This document shows positions 2,302-31,812 of a DNA stretch of 64,000 bases, piece after piece; position 1 is the first letter of the stretch; the number at the start of each line of letters is the position of its first letter. The position numbers were made by a program, and so were the translations under genes. This stretch comes from Chloroflexota bacterium (lineage in GTDB: Bacteria > Chloroflexota > Dehalococcoidia > Tepidiformales > Tepidiformaceae), in NCBI GenBank assembly GCA_016234445.1, contig JACRBT010000004.1, positions 248,001 through 312,000 of the forward strand, in the 5' to 3' direction. The notes under the pieces were generated by a model. The model worked only from the letters and a program-made list of their open reading frames with translations, did no database searches and had not been told where the DNA came from.

Positions 2302-2922
2302 CTACTCCCGCCGTCGGGCCACGGTGACAGCCCCGAGGGCAAGTCCGAGGGTGGTGATTGCGACCGCCGCCGCCAGGAACCACGACGGGACCGCTGAACT
2401 CGTGTCGTCGGCCAGGCCGGTCCCAGTGGATGGCGCCGCGGGCAGGGAGACGGCGACAAGCTGGCCGCGGATCTCGCCGGCCGCATTCGCTTTCGAATGC
2501 ACGTTGGCGTACAGGTTCCCGGCATTGAGCGCCGTAACGAAGTCAGCAAACGTCTTGCCCTGGAGCGGCCCCAGGAGCTCGGCTGCGGTTGCCGTCCCGG
2601 TGGCGTCGATGGTGGTTGTGCCGTTGGCGTTCGCAAACAGGTTGACGACGATTGGACCGGCGGCCCCGGCGGCCCCGTTGTGGATATGGGCGGCGGTCAA
2701 GTCCGTCCCCGTGGCCTGGAGGCTCCATTCAATGGATGTGCCTGTGACGGAGTAGGTGAAGGTCCCGGTCGCCGTCGTCGTGACGGGCGTGGACTCGGCG
2801 GCGCCAGTCAGCGTGACGACTTTCTGGGCCGACTGCGCGAATGCGACAGTCAGGCCGAGGGCCGCGACCATGACTGCTGTTGCGGCGGCAAGTGTGAAAC
2901 GGGTGGGTACAGAGAATGCCAT
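2302..2922 (-). CDS. Secreted CHRD-domain protein with C-terminal membrane anchor
   Basis: 206 residues from the chosen ATG: signal peptide (hydrophobic run ending VAFA at residue ~28), then a CHRD domain (~35-160) recognised by 'LTGAAESTPVTTTATG', 'AAHIHNGAAGAAGPIVVNLF', 'YANVHSKANAAGEIRGQL', then a linker, one transmembrane helix and a basic VARRRE tail. CHRD domains occur in exported bacterial proteins of unknown role. The start was chosen because AAGGAG lies five bases upstream and a signal peptide follows at once. A second in-frame ATG (3024) also has a perfect AAGGAG site and would add 34 residues, blocking normal signal-peptide placement. Confidence 0.8.
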   Translation of the reverse strand: MAFSVPTRFTLAAATAVMVAALGLTVAFAQSAQKVVTLTGAAESTPVTTTATGTFTYSVTGTSIEWSLQATGTDLTAAHIHNGAAGAAGPIVVNLFANANGTTTIDATGTATAAELLGPLQGKTFADFVTALNAGNLYANVHSKANAAGEIRGQLVAVSLPAAPSTGTGLADDTSSAVPSWFLAAAVAITTLGLALGAVTVARRRE

Positions 2923-3095
2923 AGGTGCTCCTTGGTGGGTCCAGGATTGCGCTTGGCGCGTGGTTGCTACGGCCCTTTGTTGCCCCACGGATTCACAGGC
3001 ATCTCTCGGCCGCACGGCGGCCATACCTCTCCTTAACCGGCTCACCCGCGTGGCGGCTCATGCCCTGTCGGCCTGGCGTGGCGAACGCCCGTCCC

Positions 3096-4283
3096 CTACC
3101 GGCGGCGCTGGACGAAGCGGCCGATCCGTTCGAGGGCGCGCTCGATGTTCTCGTAACTGCTGGCGTAGCAGGCGCGGACGTGGCCTTCGCCGCCGGCCCC
3201 GAAGGCGTTGCCCGGGACCACCGCCACGCGTTCCTCCGCCAACAGCCGCTCGCTGAAGGTGACGCTATCCAGGCCGGTCACGGTGATGTCGGGGAAGGCG
3301 TAGAAGGCGCCGCGCGGTTCGAACGTCGGAAGGCCAACGGCCCGGAAGCCGTCCACGATCAGCCGCCGCCGCCGGTCGTATTCGGCCACCATCTCGCGGA
3401 CGAAGGCCTCGCCGTGGTCCAGGGCCGCGATCCCGGCGTACTGGGCCGCCGTCGGCGCCGACATCATCACGTACTGGTGAACCTTCATCAGCGCCTCGGC
3501 GAGGGGCGCGGGGGCGGCCACCCAGCCCAGCCGCCAGCCGGTCATCGCGTAGGCCTTGCTGAAGCCGCCGAGGAGCACCGTCCGCCCGTGCATCCCCGGG
3601 AGCGCCGCGAAACAGGTGTGCTCGCCGCTGTAGGTCATCCGGTCGTACAACTCGTCGCTGATCACGGCGACGTCGTGCTTCGCCGCCACCTCGCCGATCG
3701 CGATCAGGTCCTCGCGGCCCATCACCGCGCCGGTTGGGTTCGCCGGGTAGCCGAGCAAGATCGCCTTCGTCCGCGGCGTGATCGCGGCTTCAACGTCGCC
3801 CGCCAGGAGCCGGAAGTCGTTCGCGGCGTAGGTCGGCACAGGCCGGAAACAACCGCCGGCCATCACCGTCGCCGGGAGGTAGGCCACGTAGGCGGGGTCG
3901 GCGCAGAGGACCTCGTCGCCCGGGTCCAGCAAAGCCCGGAGGGAGATGTCGAGCGCCTCGGAGGAGCCGCTGGTGATGACGATCTCGGTGCGCGAGTCGT
4001 AGCGGACGCCGTAGAGCCGTTCGAGGTGGGCGGCAAGCTTCTCGCGCAGTTCGAGCAGCCCATAGTTGCTCGTGTAGTGCGTGTCGCCGCGTTCGATGCT
4101 TTCGATCGCCGCCCGGCTGATCGGCGCGGGGGTGACGTAGTCGGGTTCCCCAACGCCAAGCGAGATGACGTCCTCGATCGTGCTCAGCAGGTCGAAGAAC
4201 TTGCGTATCCCGCTCGGGGGCACGCTCTGCATGCGGCGCGAAACGAATCGGCTCGACTCGGCGCTTGATGGGTCGGCTGTCAT
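3096..4283 (-). CDS. Pyridoxal-phosphate aminotransferase, class I/II (aspartate/alanine aminotransferase type)
   Basis: 395 residues, full length for fold-type I aminotransferases. The PLP lysine is K243 in 'GGFSKAYAMTGWRLGW'; upstream are the Asp/Tyr of 'VISDELYDRM' and the Asn of 'GYPANPTGAV' that hold the cofactor; the C-terminal Arg of 'HVRACYASS' would bind the substrate carboxylate. Substrate is not decided by sequence. The transcript passes a leader peptide with eight consecutive Ala codons and an intrinsic terminator before reaching this gene, which suggests it makes or feeds alanine. AGGAGGAG Shine-Dalgarno site just before ATG. It may also be annotated as AspC- or AlaA-like. Confidence 0.85.
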   Translation of the reverse strand: MTADPSSAESSRFVSRRMQSVPPSGIRKFFDLLSTIEDVISLGVGEPDYVTPAPISRAAIESIERGDTHYTSNYGLLELREKLAAHLERLYGVRYDSRTEIVITSGSSEALDISLRALLDPGDEVLCADPAYVAYLPATVMAGGCFRPVPTYAANDFRLLAGDVEAAITPRTKAILLGYPANPTGAVMGREDLIAIGEVAAKHDVAVISDELYDRMTYSGEHTCFAALPGMHGRTVLLGGFSKAYAMTGWRLGWVAAPAPLAEALMKVHQYVMMSAPTAAQYAGIAALDHGEAFVREMVAEYDRRRRLIVDGFRAVGLPTFEPRGAFYAFPDITVTGLDSVTFSERLLAEERVAVVPGNAFGAGGEGHVRACYASSYENIERALERIGRFVQRRR

Positions 4284-4317
4284 GGCTCCTCCTGTCCCCC
4301 CGCCGCGGCAGCCTCAC

Positions 4318-4343
4318 AAGAAAAAGCCGCCCCTGGAGGCGGC
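4318..4343 (-). terminator. Attenuator terminator upstream of aminotransferase
   Basis: On the minus strand GCCGCC-TCCAGG-GGCGGC followed directly by TTTTTCTT, a textbook intrinsic terminator, lying 35 bases before the aminotransferase ATG and 42 bases after the stop of the alanine-rich leader ORF. Its 5' arm is complementary to GGCGG in the segment just after the leader stop (minus strand, ~4373-4384), giving an antiterminator option. Confidence 0.8.
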
Positions 4344-4384
4344 CCGGATCTTCTCGACGCTAGTCTTGCTTGCGACCGCCAGCC

Positions 4385-4459
4385 TTACCCGCGCGCATGC
4401 GCAGCAGCCGCCGCGGCAGCAGCAAGGGCGAGGCGAAGGGCAGTGGCGGTCACATGCAT
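4385..4459 (-). CDS. Alanine-rich leader peptide (attenuator)
   Basis: 24-codon ORF (ATG to TAA) in which 12 residues are alanine, including eight Ala codons in a row at positions 13-20 (GCT, GCC and GCG mixed), plus three leucines. It starts eight bases after a CAGAGT -10-like box that is 17 bases from a TTGACG -35 box. The terminator at 4318-4343 follows. The arrangement matches classical leader-peptide attenuation responding to charged tRNA-Ala. Confidence 0.65.
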   Translation of the reverse strand: MHVTATALRLALAAAAAAAAHARG

Positions 4460-4467
4460 CGCAATGA

Positions 4468-4496
4468 ACTCTGTCGGACGGACTCGCTAGCGTCAA
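4468..4496 (-). promoter_or_regulatory. Promoter for the alanine leader transcript
   Basis: -35 TTGACG (4491-4496) and -10-like CAGAGT (4468-4473) separated by 17 bases on the minus strand. Confidence 0.5.
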
Positions 4497-4534
4497 TAGT
4501 GGCAATTGATACGAAGTCCAGCGGCGGCCGCCCC

Positions 4535-4564: not shown

Positions 4565-5980
4565 GTGCCCGATCCCACAGACCTCACCCTTGCCCAGGCC
4601 GCCGCCGCCATCCGTTCCCGGCAGCTTTCGCCGCTCGAACTCACCGAGGCCTACCTCGCCCGGATCGAACGCCTGGAACCCCGGCTCAACGCCTACATCA
4701 CGGTCACGGCGGAGCGCGCCCGCGACGACGCCCGCCGCGCCGAAACCGAAGTCGCCGGCGGCGAATACCGGGGGCCGCTCCACGGCATCCCCTTCGGGCT
4801 GAAGGACCTCTTCGAGACCGCGGGGATCCGCACGACCGCGGGCTCGAAGATCCTTGCGGACCACGTCCCCGCAGCCGACGGCACCGTGGTCCGCCGGCTG
4901 CGGGAAGCGGGCGCCGTCCTCCTCGGGAAGCAAAACCTGCACGAGTTCGCCTACGGGGCCACCTCCGAGAACCAACACTACGGCCCGGTCCACAATCCCT
5001 GGGCGCTCGCCCACATCCCCGGCGGGTCCAGTGGCGGGTCGGCCGCCGCGATCGTCGCTCGCACGGCCCTCGCGACTTTGGGCACCGACACCGCCGGCAG
5101 CATCCGCATCCCGGCGGCGCTTTCGGGATGCGTTGGGCTGAAGCCGACACGGGGCCGGGTGAGCAAGCAGGGCGTCATCCCCCTGTCCTGGACACTCGAC
5201 CACGCCGGCCCAATTACGCGGACGGTCGAGGACGCCGCCATCGTCCTGGAGGCCGTCGCCGGCTACGACCCCGCGGACTCCAGCGCCGTCCGCACGCCCG
5301 TGCCTGCTTATCGGGACGGCATCGATGGCGGCGTGAAGGGGCTCCGGGTCGGCGTGCCGCGCGCCTTCTTCTTCGACCCACTCCACGACGAGGTGAGGGC
5401 AGCAGTCGAGGCCGCGATCGAGGTCTTCCGCGGCCTCGGAGCCGACGTCCGGGACGTCGAGGGCCTCGACTTCGAACCGTTCGTGGAAGCGCGCGTCCTC
5501 GTCCAGCGGGCCGAAGCCCAGCACTACCATGAGCGCTGGTTCCGGGAACGGCCGGGGGACTACGGCGCCTCGGTGGCTGAGCGGCTCGCGGCCCCCACCC
5601 CGGCGACACTGGAACTGGTCGCGTCCCAGCGCGCCCTCGCCGCCTACACCGAGGCCGTCCGTGCGGCCCTTGAGGACGTGGACCTGCTCCTCACGCCAAC
5701 CATGGCCGGCCCGGCCCCGAAGATCGGCACGGGCGTGCTCGATTGCGGGCGAGAGTCGATCCCTGTTGGAGTAGGGTTAGTGCGGCTCACGCAGCCGTTC
5801 AACGCCACCGGATCGCCCGCGCTCTCGCTGCCTTGCGGCTTCACGCGCGACGGCCTGCCGATCGGTCTCCAGCTCGCCGGCCGCGACTTCGACGAAGCCA
5901 CGGTCCTCCGCGCCGGCCACGCCTACGAGCAGGCGACCGAGTGGCATCGGCGGCGACCGCCGGCGTTAGAGTTCCGGTAG
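4565..5980 (+). CDS. Amidase-signature family hydrolase (GatA paralogue)
   Basis: 471 residues. Amidase signature enzymes cleave amide bonds with a Ser-cisSer-Lys triad, visible as the Lys of 'PFGLKDLFETAGIRTTAGS', the cis-Ser in 'GTDTAGSIRIPA' and the nucleophile region 'PGGSSGGSAAA'. GTG start chosen because GGGGGAG precedes it by a few bases and because upstream in-frame sequence runs through the promoter and looks non-coding. The gene converges on gatA and their 3' ends overlap by 15 bases. Similar in length to GatA, but it lies outside the gatA-gatC operon, so a separate amide hydrolase is more likely than a second transamidase subunit. The natural substrate cannot be told. Confidence 0.85.
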   Translation: MPDPTDLTLAQAAAAIRSRQLSPLELTEAYLARIERLEPRLNAYITVTAERARDDARRAETEVAGGEYRGPLHGIPFGLKDLFETAGIRTTAGSKILADHVPAADGTVVRRLREAGAVLLGKQNLHEFAYGATSENQHYGPVHNPWALAHIPGGSSGGSAAAIVARTALATLGTDTAGSIRIPAALSGCVGLKPTRGRVSKQGVIPLSWTLDHAGPITRTVEDAAIVLEAVAGYDPADSSAVRTPVPAYRDGIDGGVKGLRVGVPRAFFFDPLHDEVRAAVEAAIEVFRGLGADVRDVEGLDFEPFVEARVLVQRAEAQHYHERWFRERPGDYGASVAERLAAPTPATLELVASQRALAAYTEAVRAALEDVDLLLTPTMAGPAPKIGTGVLDCGRESIPVGVGLVRLTQPFNATGSPALSLPCGFTRDGLPIGLQLAGRDFDEATVLRAGHAYEQATEWHRRRPPALEFR

Positions 5981-7426
5981 GCGGTTCGCCCAGCCGAGGG
6001 CACGTTCGAAGGCGTGGGCGGCCATCACGATCCGGGGCTCGTCGAAGAAGTTCCCGATGATCTGAAGGCCCACGGGCAGCCCCTCGCTCAGGCCGCAGGG
6101 GACGCTGATCGACGGCAGGCCCGCGACCGACGCCGGCAGCGTGTAGATGTCGTTCAAGTACATCGCATAGGGGTCGTCGACCTTCGCGCCGATGGGGAAG
6201 GCGACCGTCGGCGAGGTCGGCGTCACGAGCACGTCGTAGCGGCCGAAAGCCTCCTGGAACTCCTGGTTGATGACGGTGCGGACCTTCTGGGCCTTGAGGT
6301 AATAGGCGTCGTAGTACCCGGCGCTGAGGGCGTACGTCCCGAGCATGATCCGGCGCTTCACCTCGGCGCCGAAGCCACCCGCGCGGGTGTGTTCCATGTT
6401 CTCCCACATCGTGCCGTGGGAACGGTCGCTGTAGCCGTACTTGACGCCGTCGTAGCGGGCCAGGTTCGCGCTCGCCTCGCTCGGGGCGATCAAGTAGTAG
6501 ACCGCAAGCGCGTGTTCCGTGCTCGGCAGCGAGAGGTCCCGGTCGACGATGCAGCCGAGGCCTTCGAAAACGGCCAGCGCTTCCTCGATCCGCGCCTTCA
6601 CGCCCTCTTCCATCCCGGCGATGAAGTACTCCTTCGGGACGCCGATCCGAAGGCCCTTGATGTCGCGGCCGAGGTAGTGGCGAAGGTCCGGGAGCGGCTC
6701 GGGGTTGCTGGTGCTGTCGCGGGGGTCGTGCCCGGAGATGCAGTCCGCCATCGTCACGACATCCTCGACGTCGCGCCCGATCGGCCCCACCTGGTCGAGC
6801 GAACTCCCGAAGGCGATGATCCCGAAGCGCGAAACGCGGCCGTAGGTCGGATCCATCCCCACCACCCCGCAGAGCGCGGCCGGCTGGCGGATGCTCCCGC
6901 CGGTGTCGCTCCCAAGTGCGACGAGGCATTCGCCCGCCGCCACCGCGGCCGCCGACCCCCCCGAACTCCCGCCCGGGACAAGGGAGAGGTTCCATGGATT
7001 GTGCGAAGGCCCGAAGGCGGAATGCTCCGTGCTCGAACCCATGGCGAATTCGTCCATGTTCGCCTTGCCGACCATCACCGCCCCGGCGCGAAGGAGCTGT
7101 TCGTAGACGTGGCTGTCGTAGGGCGGGATGAAGTTCTCGAGGATGCGCGAACCTGCCGTGGTCCGCACCCCCGCGGTCACGATCAGGTCCTTTACCGCCA
7201 CGGGCACGCCGGTCAGGGGCGTGGCGGTCCCGGCTGCGAACCGGGCGTCGGCCTGGTGGGCTTGCTCCAGGGCAACCTCGGCGGTCGTCGTGATGTAGGC
7301 GTGGACGCGCGGCTCCACAGCCTCCATCCGCGCGAGCACGGACTCGGTGAGCTCCACTGCGGTGAACTGTTTCGAACGGAGGCCTTCGTGGGCTTCGTGC
7401 GCCGTCAGCCGCCAGAGGTCGCTCAT
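5966..7426 (-). CDS. gatA: Aspartyl/glutamyl-tRNA amidotransferase subunit A
   Basis: 486 residues. GatA releases ammonia from glutamine and passes it to GatB, which amidates Glu-tRNA(Gln) or Asp-tRNA(Asn). Triad elements are visible: Lys in 'VPVAVKDLIVTAGVRTTAGS', cis-Ser in 'GSDTGGSIRQPAA', nucleophile in 'PGGSSGGSAAAVAAG'. The N-terminus 'LTAHEAHEGLRSKQFTAVELTESVLARMEAVEPRVHAYI' is typical GatA. It overlaps gatC by four bases (ATGA), so the two are translationally coupled. gatB is not in the window. Confidence 0.93.
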   Translation of the reverse strand: MSDLWRLTAHEAHEGLRSKQFTAVELTESVLARMEAVEPRVHAYITTTAEVALEQAHQADARFAAGTATPLTGVPVAVKDLIVTAGVRTTAGSRILENFIPPYDSHVYEQLLRAGAVMVGKANMDEFAMGSSTEHSAFGPSHNPWNLSLVPGGSSGGSAAAVAAGECLVALGSDTGGSIRQPAALCGVVGMDPTYGRVSRFGIIAFGSSLDQVGPIGRDVEDVVTMADCISGHDPRDSTSNPEPLPDLRHYLGRDIKGLRIGVPKEYFIAGMEEGVKARIEEALAVFEGLGCIVDRDLSLPSTEHALAVYYLIAPSEASANLARYDGVKYGYSDRSHGTMWENMEHTRAGGFGAEVKRRIMLGTYALSAGYYDAYYLKAQKVRTVINQEFQEAFGRYDVLVTPTSPTVAFPIGAKVDDPYAMYLNDIYTLPASVAGLPSISVPCGLSEGLPVGLQIIGNFFDEPRIVMAAHAFERALGWANRLPEL

Positions 7427-29936: not shown

Positions 29937-31624
29937 CGCGCCAGCTCCGCTTCCGGGGCCTCGATGGTTTCCGAGAGGGATGCGCCCGCCGGGACCATCG
30001 GCCAGACGTTCTCTTCCTGGTCGACCTGGAAGTCGATGAGGATGGGGCCGTCGTATTCGCGTGCGATGCGGATGGCGTCGTGCACCTCGGCCTTCGTGTT
30101 CACGCGGAGGGCACGGATCCCGTAGGCGTCGGCGAGCTTGACGAAGTCCGGCTGGGTGACCGCGACAGAGACGAAGTTGCGGTCGTAGAAGAGCTCCTGC
30201 CACTGGCGGACCATGCCGAGGTAGCCATTGTTGAAGATGGCCATCTTCACGGGCAGGCGTTCGTCGACAAGGACGGCGAGTTCGTGGAGCGTCATCTGGA
30301 AGCTGCCGTCGCCGCAAATCGCCCAGACTTCGGCGTCGGGGGTGGCCACCTGCGCGCCGATAGCGCCCGGCAGTTCGAAGCCCATGGTCCCGAGCCCGCC
30401 CGAGCTGATGAGCTGGCGCGGGCGTTCGTAGAAGTAGTGCTGGCCGGCGAACATCTGGTGCTGGCCGACGCCCGTGACGATCGTGGCGTTGCCCTCCGTC
30501 TCTTCGTAGATCGAGCGCATCACGTACTGCGGCAGCAAGCGCCGGGTCTCGCGGATGTGGAGGCTGGGGTGGAGTTCGCGCTCATTGTCGATCCACTTGA
30601 TCCACTCGGTCCGGGACTGCGGGTGGACCTGGGCGGCGAGCCGCGGCAGCACGTTCTTTGCGTCACCGACAATGGGGACGGTGGTCGGGAAGTTTTTGCC
30701 GATCTCGGCGGGGTCGATGTCGATGTGGATGATCTTGACGCCGGGGTTGAAGCCGGAGAAGCGGCCCATGGCGCGGTCGTCGAAGCGCATGCCGACGCCG
30801 ATGACGAGGTCGGCGTTGTCGGCGGCGCGGTTGGCGTAGAACATCCCGTGCATGCCCAGCCAGCCGTAGCTGAGGGTGTGACTTTCAGGGAAGCCGCCGA
30901 TGCCGAGGAACGTCGTGATGACCGGGATCTGGGCCTTTTCCGCGAGCTCCACCAGTTCGTTGTGGGCGTCGCCCCAGATGACCCCGTGGCCGGAGATGAT
31001 GATCGGCTTCTTCGCCTGGTCGATGAGCTCGGCGGCGCGGCGGATCATCCCGGGGTGGCCCTCGGTGTTCGGCTTGTAGCCGCGCAGGTTGATCTGCTCG
31101 GGCCACTCGAATTCGGCCGACTCCTGGAAGACGTCCTTCGGGATGTCGATGTGGACGGGGCCTGGCCTCCCCGTGGTGGCGATGTGCACCGCTTCGCGGA
31201 CAGCGAGGGCGATGTCCTCGGCCTTCATGACCAGGTAGTTGTGCTTCGTGATCGAGTGGGTGATGCCGGTGATGTCGGCTTCCTGGAACCCGTCCTTGCC
31301 GAGGAGGGTGCGGGAGACGTTACCCGTGAGGACGAGCATCGGGGTCGAGTCCATCCAGGCCGTGCAGATGCCCGTGACCAGGTTCGTGGCGCCCGGACCG
31401 CTGGTGCCCAGGCAGACCCCGATGCGGCCACTGGCACGGGCGTAGCCGTCGGCCATGTGGGCGGCGCCCTGTTCGTGCCGGACGAGGATGTGGCGAAGTT
31501 CGGGGAACTCGGGCAGCGTGTCGTAGAGCGGGAGGACGACGCCGCCGGGGTAGCCGAAAATCGTGTCGATCCCTTCCCTGCGGAGACACTCCAGCAGGAT
31601 TTGGGAGCCAGTCATGCGGACCAT
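29933..31624 (-). CDS. ilvB: Acetolactate synthase large (catalytic) subunit
   Basis: 563 residues. TPP- and FAD-dependent enzyme joining two pyruvates (valine/leucine) or pyruvate and 2-oxobutyrate (isoleucine). Seen: N-terminal Pyr domain with catalytic Glu in 'HILVRHEQGAAHMADGYARA', central FAD domain, C-terminal PP domain with 'ICGDGSFQMT... VKMAIFNNGYLGMVRQWQ' (GDG...NN TPP motif). Start set at the first ATG of 'MVRMTGSQILLECL', which has AGAGG nine bases upstream. Coupled to ilvN; preceded by a 233-base gap with several hairpins. Confidence 0.95.
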   Translation of the reverse strand: MVRMTGSQILLECLRREGIDTIFGYPGGVVLPLYDTLPEFPELRHILVRHEQGAAHMADGYARASGRIGVCLGTSGPGATNLVTGICTAWMDSTPMLVLTGNVSRTLLGKDGFQEADITGITHSITKHNYLVMKAEDIALAVREAVHIATTGRPGPVHIDIPKDVFQESAEFEWPEQINLRGYKPNTEGHPGMIRRAAELIDQAKKPIIISGHGVIWGDAHNELVELAEKAQIPVITTFLGIGGFPESHTLSYGWLGMHGMFYANRAADNADLVIGVGMRFDDRAMGRFSGFNPGVKIIHIDIDPAEIGKNFPTTVPIVGDAKNVLPRLAAQVHPQSRTEWIKWIDNERELHPSLHIRETRRLLPQYVMRSIYEETEGNATIVTGVGQHQMFAGQHYFYERPRQLISSGGLGTMGFELPGAIGAQVATPDAEVWAICGDGSFQMTLHELAVLVDERLPVKMAIFNNGYLGMVRQWQELFYDRNFVSVAVTQPDFVKLADAYGIRALRVNTKAEVHDAIRIAREYDGPILIDFQVDQEENVWPMVPAGASLSETIEAPEAELAR

Positions 31625-31764
31625 GGGAAGACCTCTTTGCGGCCCCGTGAGATTCGTACCCGGCGCTTCCCCGGTGAGGGGTGGCCGGTGCCCGCCACGC
31701 CATTCGGTCGTGGCTGCCGCCCGGACGGCAGGGGAGCCGTATCCGGGAGGCTGAAGGCAAGAGG

Positions 31765-31795
31765 GACGGGCCGGTAAGCCCGCGGACCCTCCGAC
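31765..31795 (-). promoter_or_regulatory. Structured element in ilvB leader
   Basis: On the minus strand a two-part hairpin, outer GAGGG/CCCTC and inner CGGGC/GCCCG, resembling the outer frame of a T-box antiterminator but without the tRNA-pairing UGGN bulge. A 10-bp hairpin (CCCGG-ACGGC / GCCGT-CCGGG) follows. Function unknown. Confidence 0.35.
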
Positions 31796-31812
31796 GTAAG
31801 CCGCAGGATCCC

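Follow-up and report, generated by a model that had tools for sequence, protein, structure and literature searches.

A candidate alanine-sensing leader-peptide attenuator upstream of an aminotransferase gene in a Chloroflexota family

Does a short open reading frame (ORF) with a run of alanine codons, lying ahead of an aminotransferase gene in a Chloroflexota genome, couple the supply of alanyl-tRNA to transcription of that gene? The ORF is located on the minus strand of the window, the 64-kb stretch of DNA analyzed here, which belongs to a genome of 3.5 Mb in 20 contigs (G000). An initial annotation had described promoter boxes, a 24-codon Ala-rich ORF, a GGCGG segment, an intrinsic terminator, and the aminotransferase gene, all of which are present where it placed them (Table 1), and had read them as a leader-peptide attenuator. 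The reading favored here, with a probability of about 0.82, is a trp-type ribosome-mediated transcription attenuator that senses alanyl-tRNA upstream of an alanine-forming aminotransferase. The mechanism itself is classical; alanine as the signal and the occurrence in Chloroflexota appear to be essentially new for attenuation.

Table 1. Features of the leader locus and of other elements in the 64-kb window
Feature	Position	Strand	Remarks
-35 box TTGACG	4491..4496	-	TTGAC[G/C] kept in 29/29 leaders at a fixed distance from the ORF
-10 box CAGAGT	4468..4473	-	17-nt spacer to the -35 box; ends 8 nt 5' of the leader ATG
Leader-peptide ORF MHVTATALRLALAAAAAAAAHARG	4385..4459	-	24 codons, 12 Ala; homologous ORFs of 21-30 codons in 29 genomes
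Region 1, GACCGCCA	4444..4451	-	Leader codons 3-6; pairing partner, region 2
Run of eight Ala codons (putative sensor)	4400..4423	-	GCT GCT GCC GCG GCG GCT GCT GCG
GCG-x-GCG-CGC motif	4388-4402	-	3' end of the leader ORF
Region 2, TGGCGGTCG	4373..4381	-	Begins 3 nt past the leader stop; partner, region 1 (protector) or region 3 (antiterminator)
Intrinsic terminator stem-loop, regions 3 and 4	4324..4345	-	GGGCCGCC TCCA GGGGCGGC, then TTTTTCTT; T-rich tail to ~4317
Class I PLP aminotransferase gene	3096..4283	-	Shine-Dalgarno-like AGGAGGAG of its own
GatA-like amidase gene	4565-5980	+	Divergent from the leader
True gatA	5966-7426	-	Separated from the leader by the amidase gene
G-rich spacer, ~170 nt	2925-3095	-	Between the aminotransferase gene and the gene at 2302-2922
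Gene for a small exported-looking protein	2302-2922		
Structured RNA, ~145 nt	31655-31800	-	Directly upstream of ilvB
ilvB	29960-31615	-	

Distribution and conservation of the leader

Of the 38 genomes of the same Dehalococcoidia family, 29 contain a single copy of the leader unit, as detected at 69–94 bits by a covariance model that extends from the Ala run through the terminator, with background matches reaching at most ~34 bits. The leader-carrying genomes span 14 or so genera; the aminotransferase gene follows the leader in 27 of them, and a contig end follows it in the other two. Candidate second copies scoring 24–34 bits, both in the genome of the window and in its relatives, were rejected as coding DNA or as lacking some of the parts. 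Searches of 393 genomes from the class and 400 from the phylum give nothing above background outside the family, and no short ORF with at least four consecutive Ala codons is present within 350 nt upstream of the same enzyme at ~80 loci outside the family, ~30 of which have a G+C content of at least 60%. The leader is real rather than a GC artefact, and it is confined to this Dehalococcoidia family. No Rfam family, T-box included, matches the leader at the gathering score, and the sole weak hit, to isrG at 12 bits, lies on the other strand. In the four genomes inspected, no leader of the same kind occurs before trpE, where there is no intergenic leader, or before ilvB, where a structured RNA is found instead.

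The ORF, the GGCGG segment, and the terminator are all conserved in relatives, which supports the attenuator interpretation of the initial annotation. The comparison of related genomes that it had proposed as a check, with non-conservation counting against it, finds the Ala codons conserved with shifting third bases. When changes are counted by parsimony on a maximum-likelihood aminotransferase tree of 27 rows, the six core Ala codons require at least 33 codon changes but a single amino-acid change (Ala to Ser), whereas the residue changes 4–6 times on the tree at the positions beside them. Across leaders, the runs use all four Ala codons and comprise 6–8 tandem Ala, but 4 in one of the 29 genomes. 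Both the conserved parts and the selection on the Ala codons are therefore established computationally. At the 3' end of the ORF, the motif GCG-x-GCG-CGC is nearly invariant at this place in the window and in 28 relatives, with one change per codon on the tree even when silent sites are included, although the preceding Ala codons vary freely, so that a constraint at the nucleotide or codon level acts there. A hairpin, an RNA polymerase pause, or a codon-specific stall are options for this constraint, and the near-invariant GCGC-N4-GCGC corresponds to a small predicted hairpin.

Departures from this arrangement are few. Three family genomes possess the enzyme without the leader: two members of one genus (G011, locus L018; G047, locus L171) have nothing leader-like before the enzyme gene, and the third (G007, locus L020; 1.4 Mb) retains the promoter boxes and a T-tract hairpin, with the Ala ORF absent. 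No alanine dehydrogenase scores above the cut-off in these three genomes, a small sample. The remaining family genomes in which no leader was detected carry no intact copy of the orthologous enzyme gene in their assemblies. Two leaders (L125 in G019 and L138 in G024) have lost the stop codon, so that the ORF reaches 30 codons through region 2, with the other parts kept; in these genomes, region 2 would be cleared as the ribosome translates through it.

A generic sigma-70 scan makes no promoter call at the leader; the promoter assignment is supported by conservation of the boxes across leaders, in which a hexamer of the form [C/G]A[G/C/A]AGT occurs at equal spacing from the -35 box in 27 of 29 cases. 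In all 29 leaders, an in-frame ATG or GTG stands 7–10 nt from the -10 box, a spacing that is too short to accommodate a Shine-Dalgarno sequence and that places the presumed transcription start at, or a few nucleotides from, the start codon. The leader ORF is thus probably translated in leaderless fashion, as judged from this spacing.

Alternative pairings and the proposed mechanism

Attenuators of the trp type depend on mutually exclusive RNA pairings. Region 2 (TGGCGGTC) sits directly 3' of the leader stop, and a protector segment inside the ORF (region 1), which the initial annotation had overlooked, completes the set of 1:2, 2:3, and 3:4 stems. In a swap test that compares pairing within and between genomes for 17 diverse leaders, with relatedness left uncorrected, pairing is stronger within the genome for the 1:2 protector (p=0.0026), the 2:3 antiterminator (p=0.012), and the 3:4 terminator (p<0.0002). 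The Ala run itself was rejected as the protector of region 2 by the same test (p=0.46). RNAalifold detects no compensatory changes on a MAFFT alignment, partly owing to a one-base misalignment of the terminator's 3' arm; swap tests served in its place. The terminator hairpin is present in all 29 leaders with a mean energy of -17.0 kcal/mol and a T-rich tail. In the window, it does not belong to an upstream gene, since the divergent amidase gene points away from it.

Folding of the nascent RNA depends on the position of the ribosome. Before region 4 has been transcribed, region 3 is sequestered with a mean probability of 0.93–0.95 when the ribosome is placed on the first, fourth, or last Ala codon, compared with 0.45 when it stands at the stop and 0.62 in its absence. 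The difference between stall and stop amounts to 0.50 versus 0.11 once region 2 and the spacer are shuffled (Wilcoxon p=1.5e-5). The three alternative pairings are established computationally, and dependence on ribosome position is supported by these models for RNA made ahead of region 4. Once region 4 has been added, equilibrium folding favors the terminator in most genomes whatever the ribosome state, a stalled ribosome included, and the switch must therefore be kinetic. In these folding models, the equilibrium preference for the terminator is the main mechanistic weakness of the attenuator reading. A second weakness concerns the position of region 1 on the 5' side of the Ala run: a ribosome that stalls early in the run would be found between regions 1 and 2 and would not cover region 1.

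The following sequence of events is proposed. RNA polymerase would begin at the leader ATG or immediately beside it, and a ribosome would load onto the 5' end of the new RNA. With ample alanyl-tRNA, the ribosome would cross the Ala run, reach the stop, and cover region 2 (UGGCGGUCG), leaving region 3 to pair with region 4; the resulting terminator would end the transcript after ~145 nt. When alanyl-tRNA is short, the ribosome would stall within the run, and the exposed region 2 would pair with region 3 before region 4 exists, allowing transcription to continue into the aminotransferase gene. In the absence of translation, region 1 would pair with region 2 and the terminator would be favored. 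Both termination in vivo and the role of alanine as the signal are what we infer from this architecture.

Competing interpretations of the alanine run

The Ala run could be viewed as merely a sensitive part of a general translation-stress sensor, in which any slowdown of the leader ribosome relieves termination, as proposed for whiB7/wblC. Non-Ala codons do flank the run, and leader ORFs that answer several stresses are known, but the Ala codons are conserved where the neighboring residues are not, and the downstream gene encodes a metabolic aminotransferase and no stress regulator; such a sensor is considered unlikely. The near fixation of GCG-x-GCG-CGC down to its silent sites would also accord with nascent-peptide or codon-pair arrest at the C-terminal (H/R/Q)-A-R-(G/R), the pause then arising from the peptide rather than from uncharged tRNA. 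However, the predicted GCGC-N4-GCGC hairpin also explains the invariant bases, and one genome (G013) has APSCR in place of the motif and retains the rest of the unit, so that arrest of this type seems rather less probable still.

It is very improbable that the ORF encodes a functional microprotein acting in trans, for example at the membrane, with a merely operonic link to the aminotransferase. With its hydrophobic run of Ala and the Arg behind it, the product does resemble a small membrane or signal-like peptide, yet the N-terminal half of the peptide varies freely, and the terminator and alternative pairings are placed exactly as an attenuator requires. The initial annotation cautioned that Ala runs arise by chance in high-GC DNA. 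A chance run, together with an ordinary terminator of an upstream gene, would accord with the composition of the leader region (68–71% G+C). This possibility is already refuted and is given next to no weight: the run persists across the genera with synonymous turnover, none is found at the comparable loci outside the family, and the upstream gene in this genome faces the other way. The alanyl-tRNA-sensing attenuator thus remains the preferred interpretation.

The aminotransferase, related systems, and neighboring elements

The identity of the enzyme bears directly on the proposed signal. Among NCBIfam families, PRK07682 is the best match of the aminotransferase, at 492.7 bits and thus below the cut-off of 620; relatives of the enzyme with solved structures bear the names of aspartate or aromatic aminotransferases. 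PRK07682 presumably includes B. subtilis YugH, renamed AlaT, whose gene adjoins that of the Lrp-type regulator AlaR. On that assumption, the Lrp/AsnC-type gene found near the same enzyme at 61 loci, all outside the family and almost always directly upstream, fits an alanine aminotransferase. From sequence comparison, the enzyme is likely an alanine transaminase, with alanine as the product. Alanine dehydrogenase is also encoded in three leader-carrying genomes, so the aminotransferase need not be the sole source of alanine. In other Chloroflexota, the enzyme gene follows gatA; within the family, several relatives carry gatA immediately ahead of the leader and in the same orientation. On the other side of the aminotransferase gene, the G-rich spacer possibly folds, and the small exported-looking protein encoded beyond it falls in no NCBIfam family. 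The leader would itself provide functional evidence for naming this poorly resolved aminotransferase.

Among known systems, the E. coli trpL-type (trp/his/leu) attenuators are the closest in design, sharing a short ORF with tandem cognate codons, the 1:2, 2:3, and 3:4 stems, and a U-tailed terminator before the gene. The present leader differs from them in its Ala codons, its occurrence in Chloroflexota, its lack of a Shine-Dalgarno sequence (it is probably leaderless), and the single aminotransferase gene directly downstream. The statement in the initial annotation that alanine attenuators are not known needs softening, as an alanine-dependent leader peptide, AlaL (MNVIGRNIFATARATSSPVAAA), has been predicted before alaS in Streptomyces lividans TK24 and was, according to its authors, previously undescribed (PMC8079986). 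AlaL has three tandem Ala in one genome and precedes an alanyl-tRNA synthetase gene, whereas the leader described here occurs in 29 genomes, precedes an aminotransferase gene, and has comparative support.

Another link to alanine comes from whiB7, which has been tied to alanine starvation through an attenuator in its upstream ORF (uORF) (PMC13236596, PMC11550727). Systems of the whiB7/wblC type resemble the present one in having a uORF, a terminator, an antiterminator, and a connection with alanine starvation (PMC11550727, PMC13393426). They control a transcription factor and answer many translation stresses, whereas the gene regulated here would be that of a metabolic aminotransferase. To our knowledge, the whiB7/wblC uORF has no long conserved Ala run, and alanine starvation has reportedly been described for whiB7 by Poulton et al. 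in 2024. Within the open-licence literature, the Streptomyces alaS prediction and the whiB7 link are the only precedents for a leader peptide with alanine as the signal, and a further, unseen precedent is possible.

Leaderless leader peptides are known from Streptomyces (PMC8079986) and from S. meliloti trpL (PMC7298713), in which the leader ORF opens the transcript, as it probably does here; those leaders contain Leu, Trp, Ile/Val, Met, or Thr codons and belong to other phyla, whereas the codons here are for Ala. The mycobacterial polycysteine ORFs (Canestrari et al. 2020, as cited in PMC9031893 and PMC13236596) are leaderless and are described as acting by translational attenuation. They share with the present, probably leaderless, short ORF a run of one cognate amino acid, but the run is of Cys, whereas an Ala run is combined here with a transcription terminator. 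A 2010 survey, which added Firmicutes, gave Proteobacteria and Actinobacteria as the sole phyla from which leader peptides had been known (PMC2965389). The present leader would extend leader-peptide attenuation to Chloroflexota and points to leaderless initiation of the leader there. An alanine attenuator with comparative support would demonstrate that 6–8 repeats are enough to turn even a very common codon into a signal. The chances appear evenly balanced that a leaderless Ala-specific attenuator arose once in this family and took over an alanine aminotransferase often paired with Lrp/AsnC elsewhere, which would make it the first comparatively proven case of a biosynthetic gene under an alanine attenuator. 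If true, a protein regulator would here have been replaced in nature by a sensor based on the translating ribosome.

Elsewhere in the window, a conserved structured RNA lies directly upstream of ilvB. It has no Rfam match at E<1 and no counterpart outside the family among 400 genomes of the phylum. DNA-similarity matches are present in 24 of the 38 family genomes, and all 13 that were inspected sit just before ilvB. This element is a candidate for a new RNA regulator of branched-chain amino-acid synthesis; in 12 aligned copies, 14 of 46 predicted pairs have changed on both sides, and the covariation score is above that of 500 of 500 shuffles.
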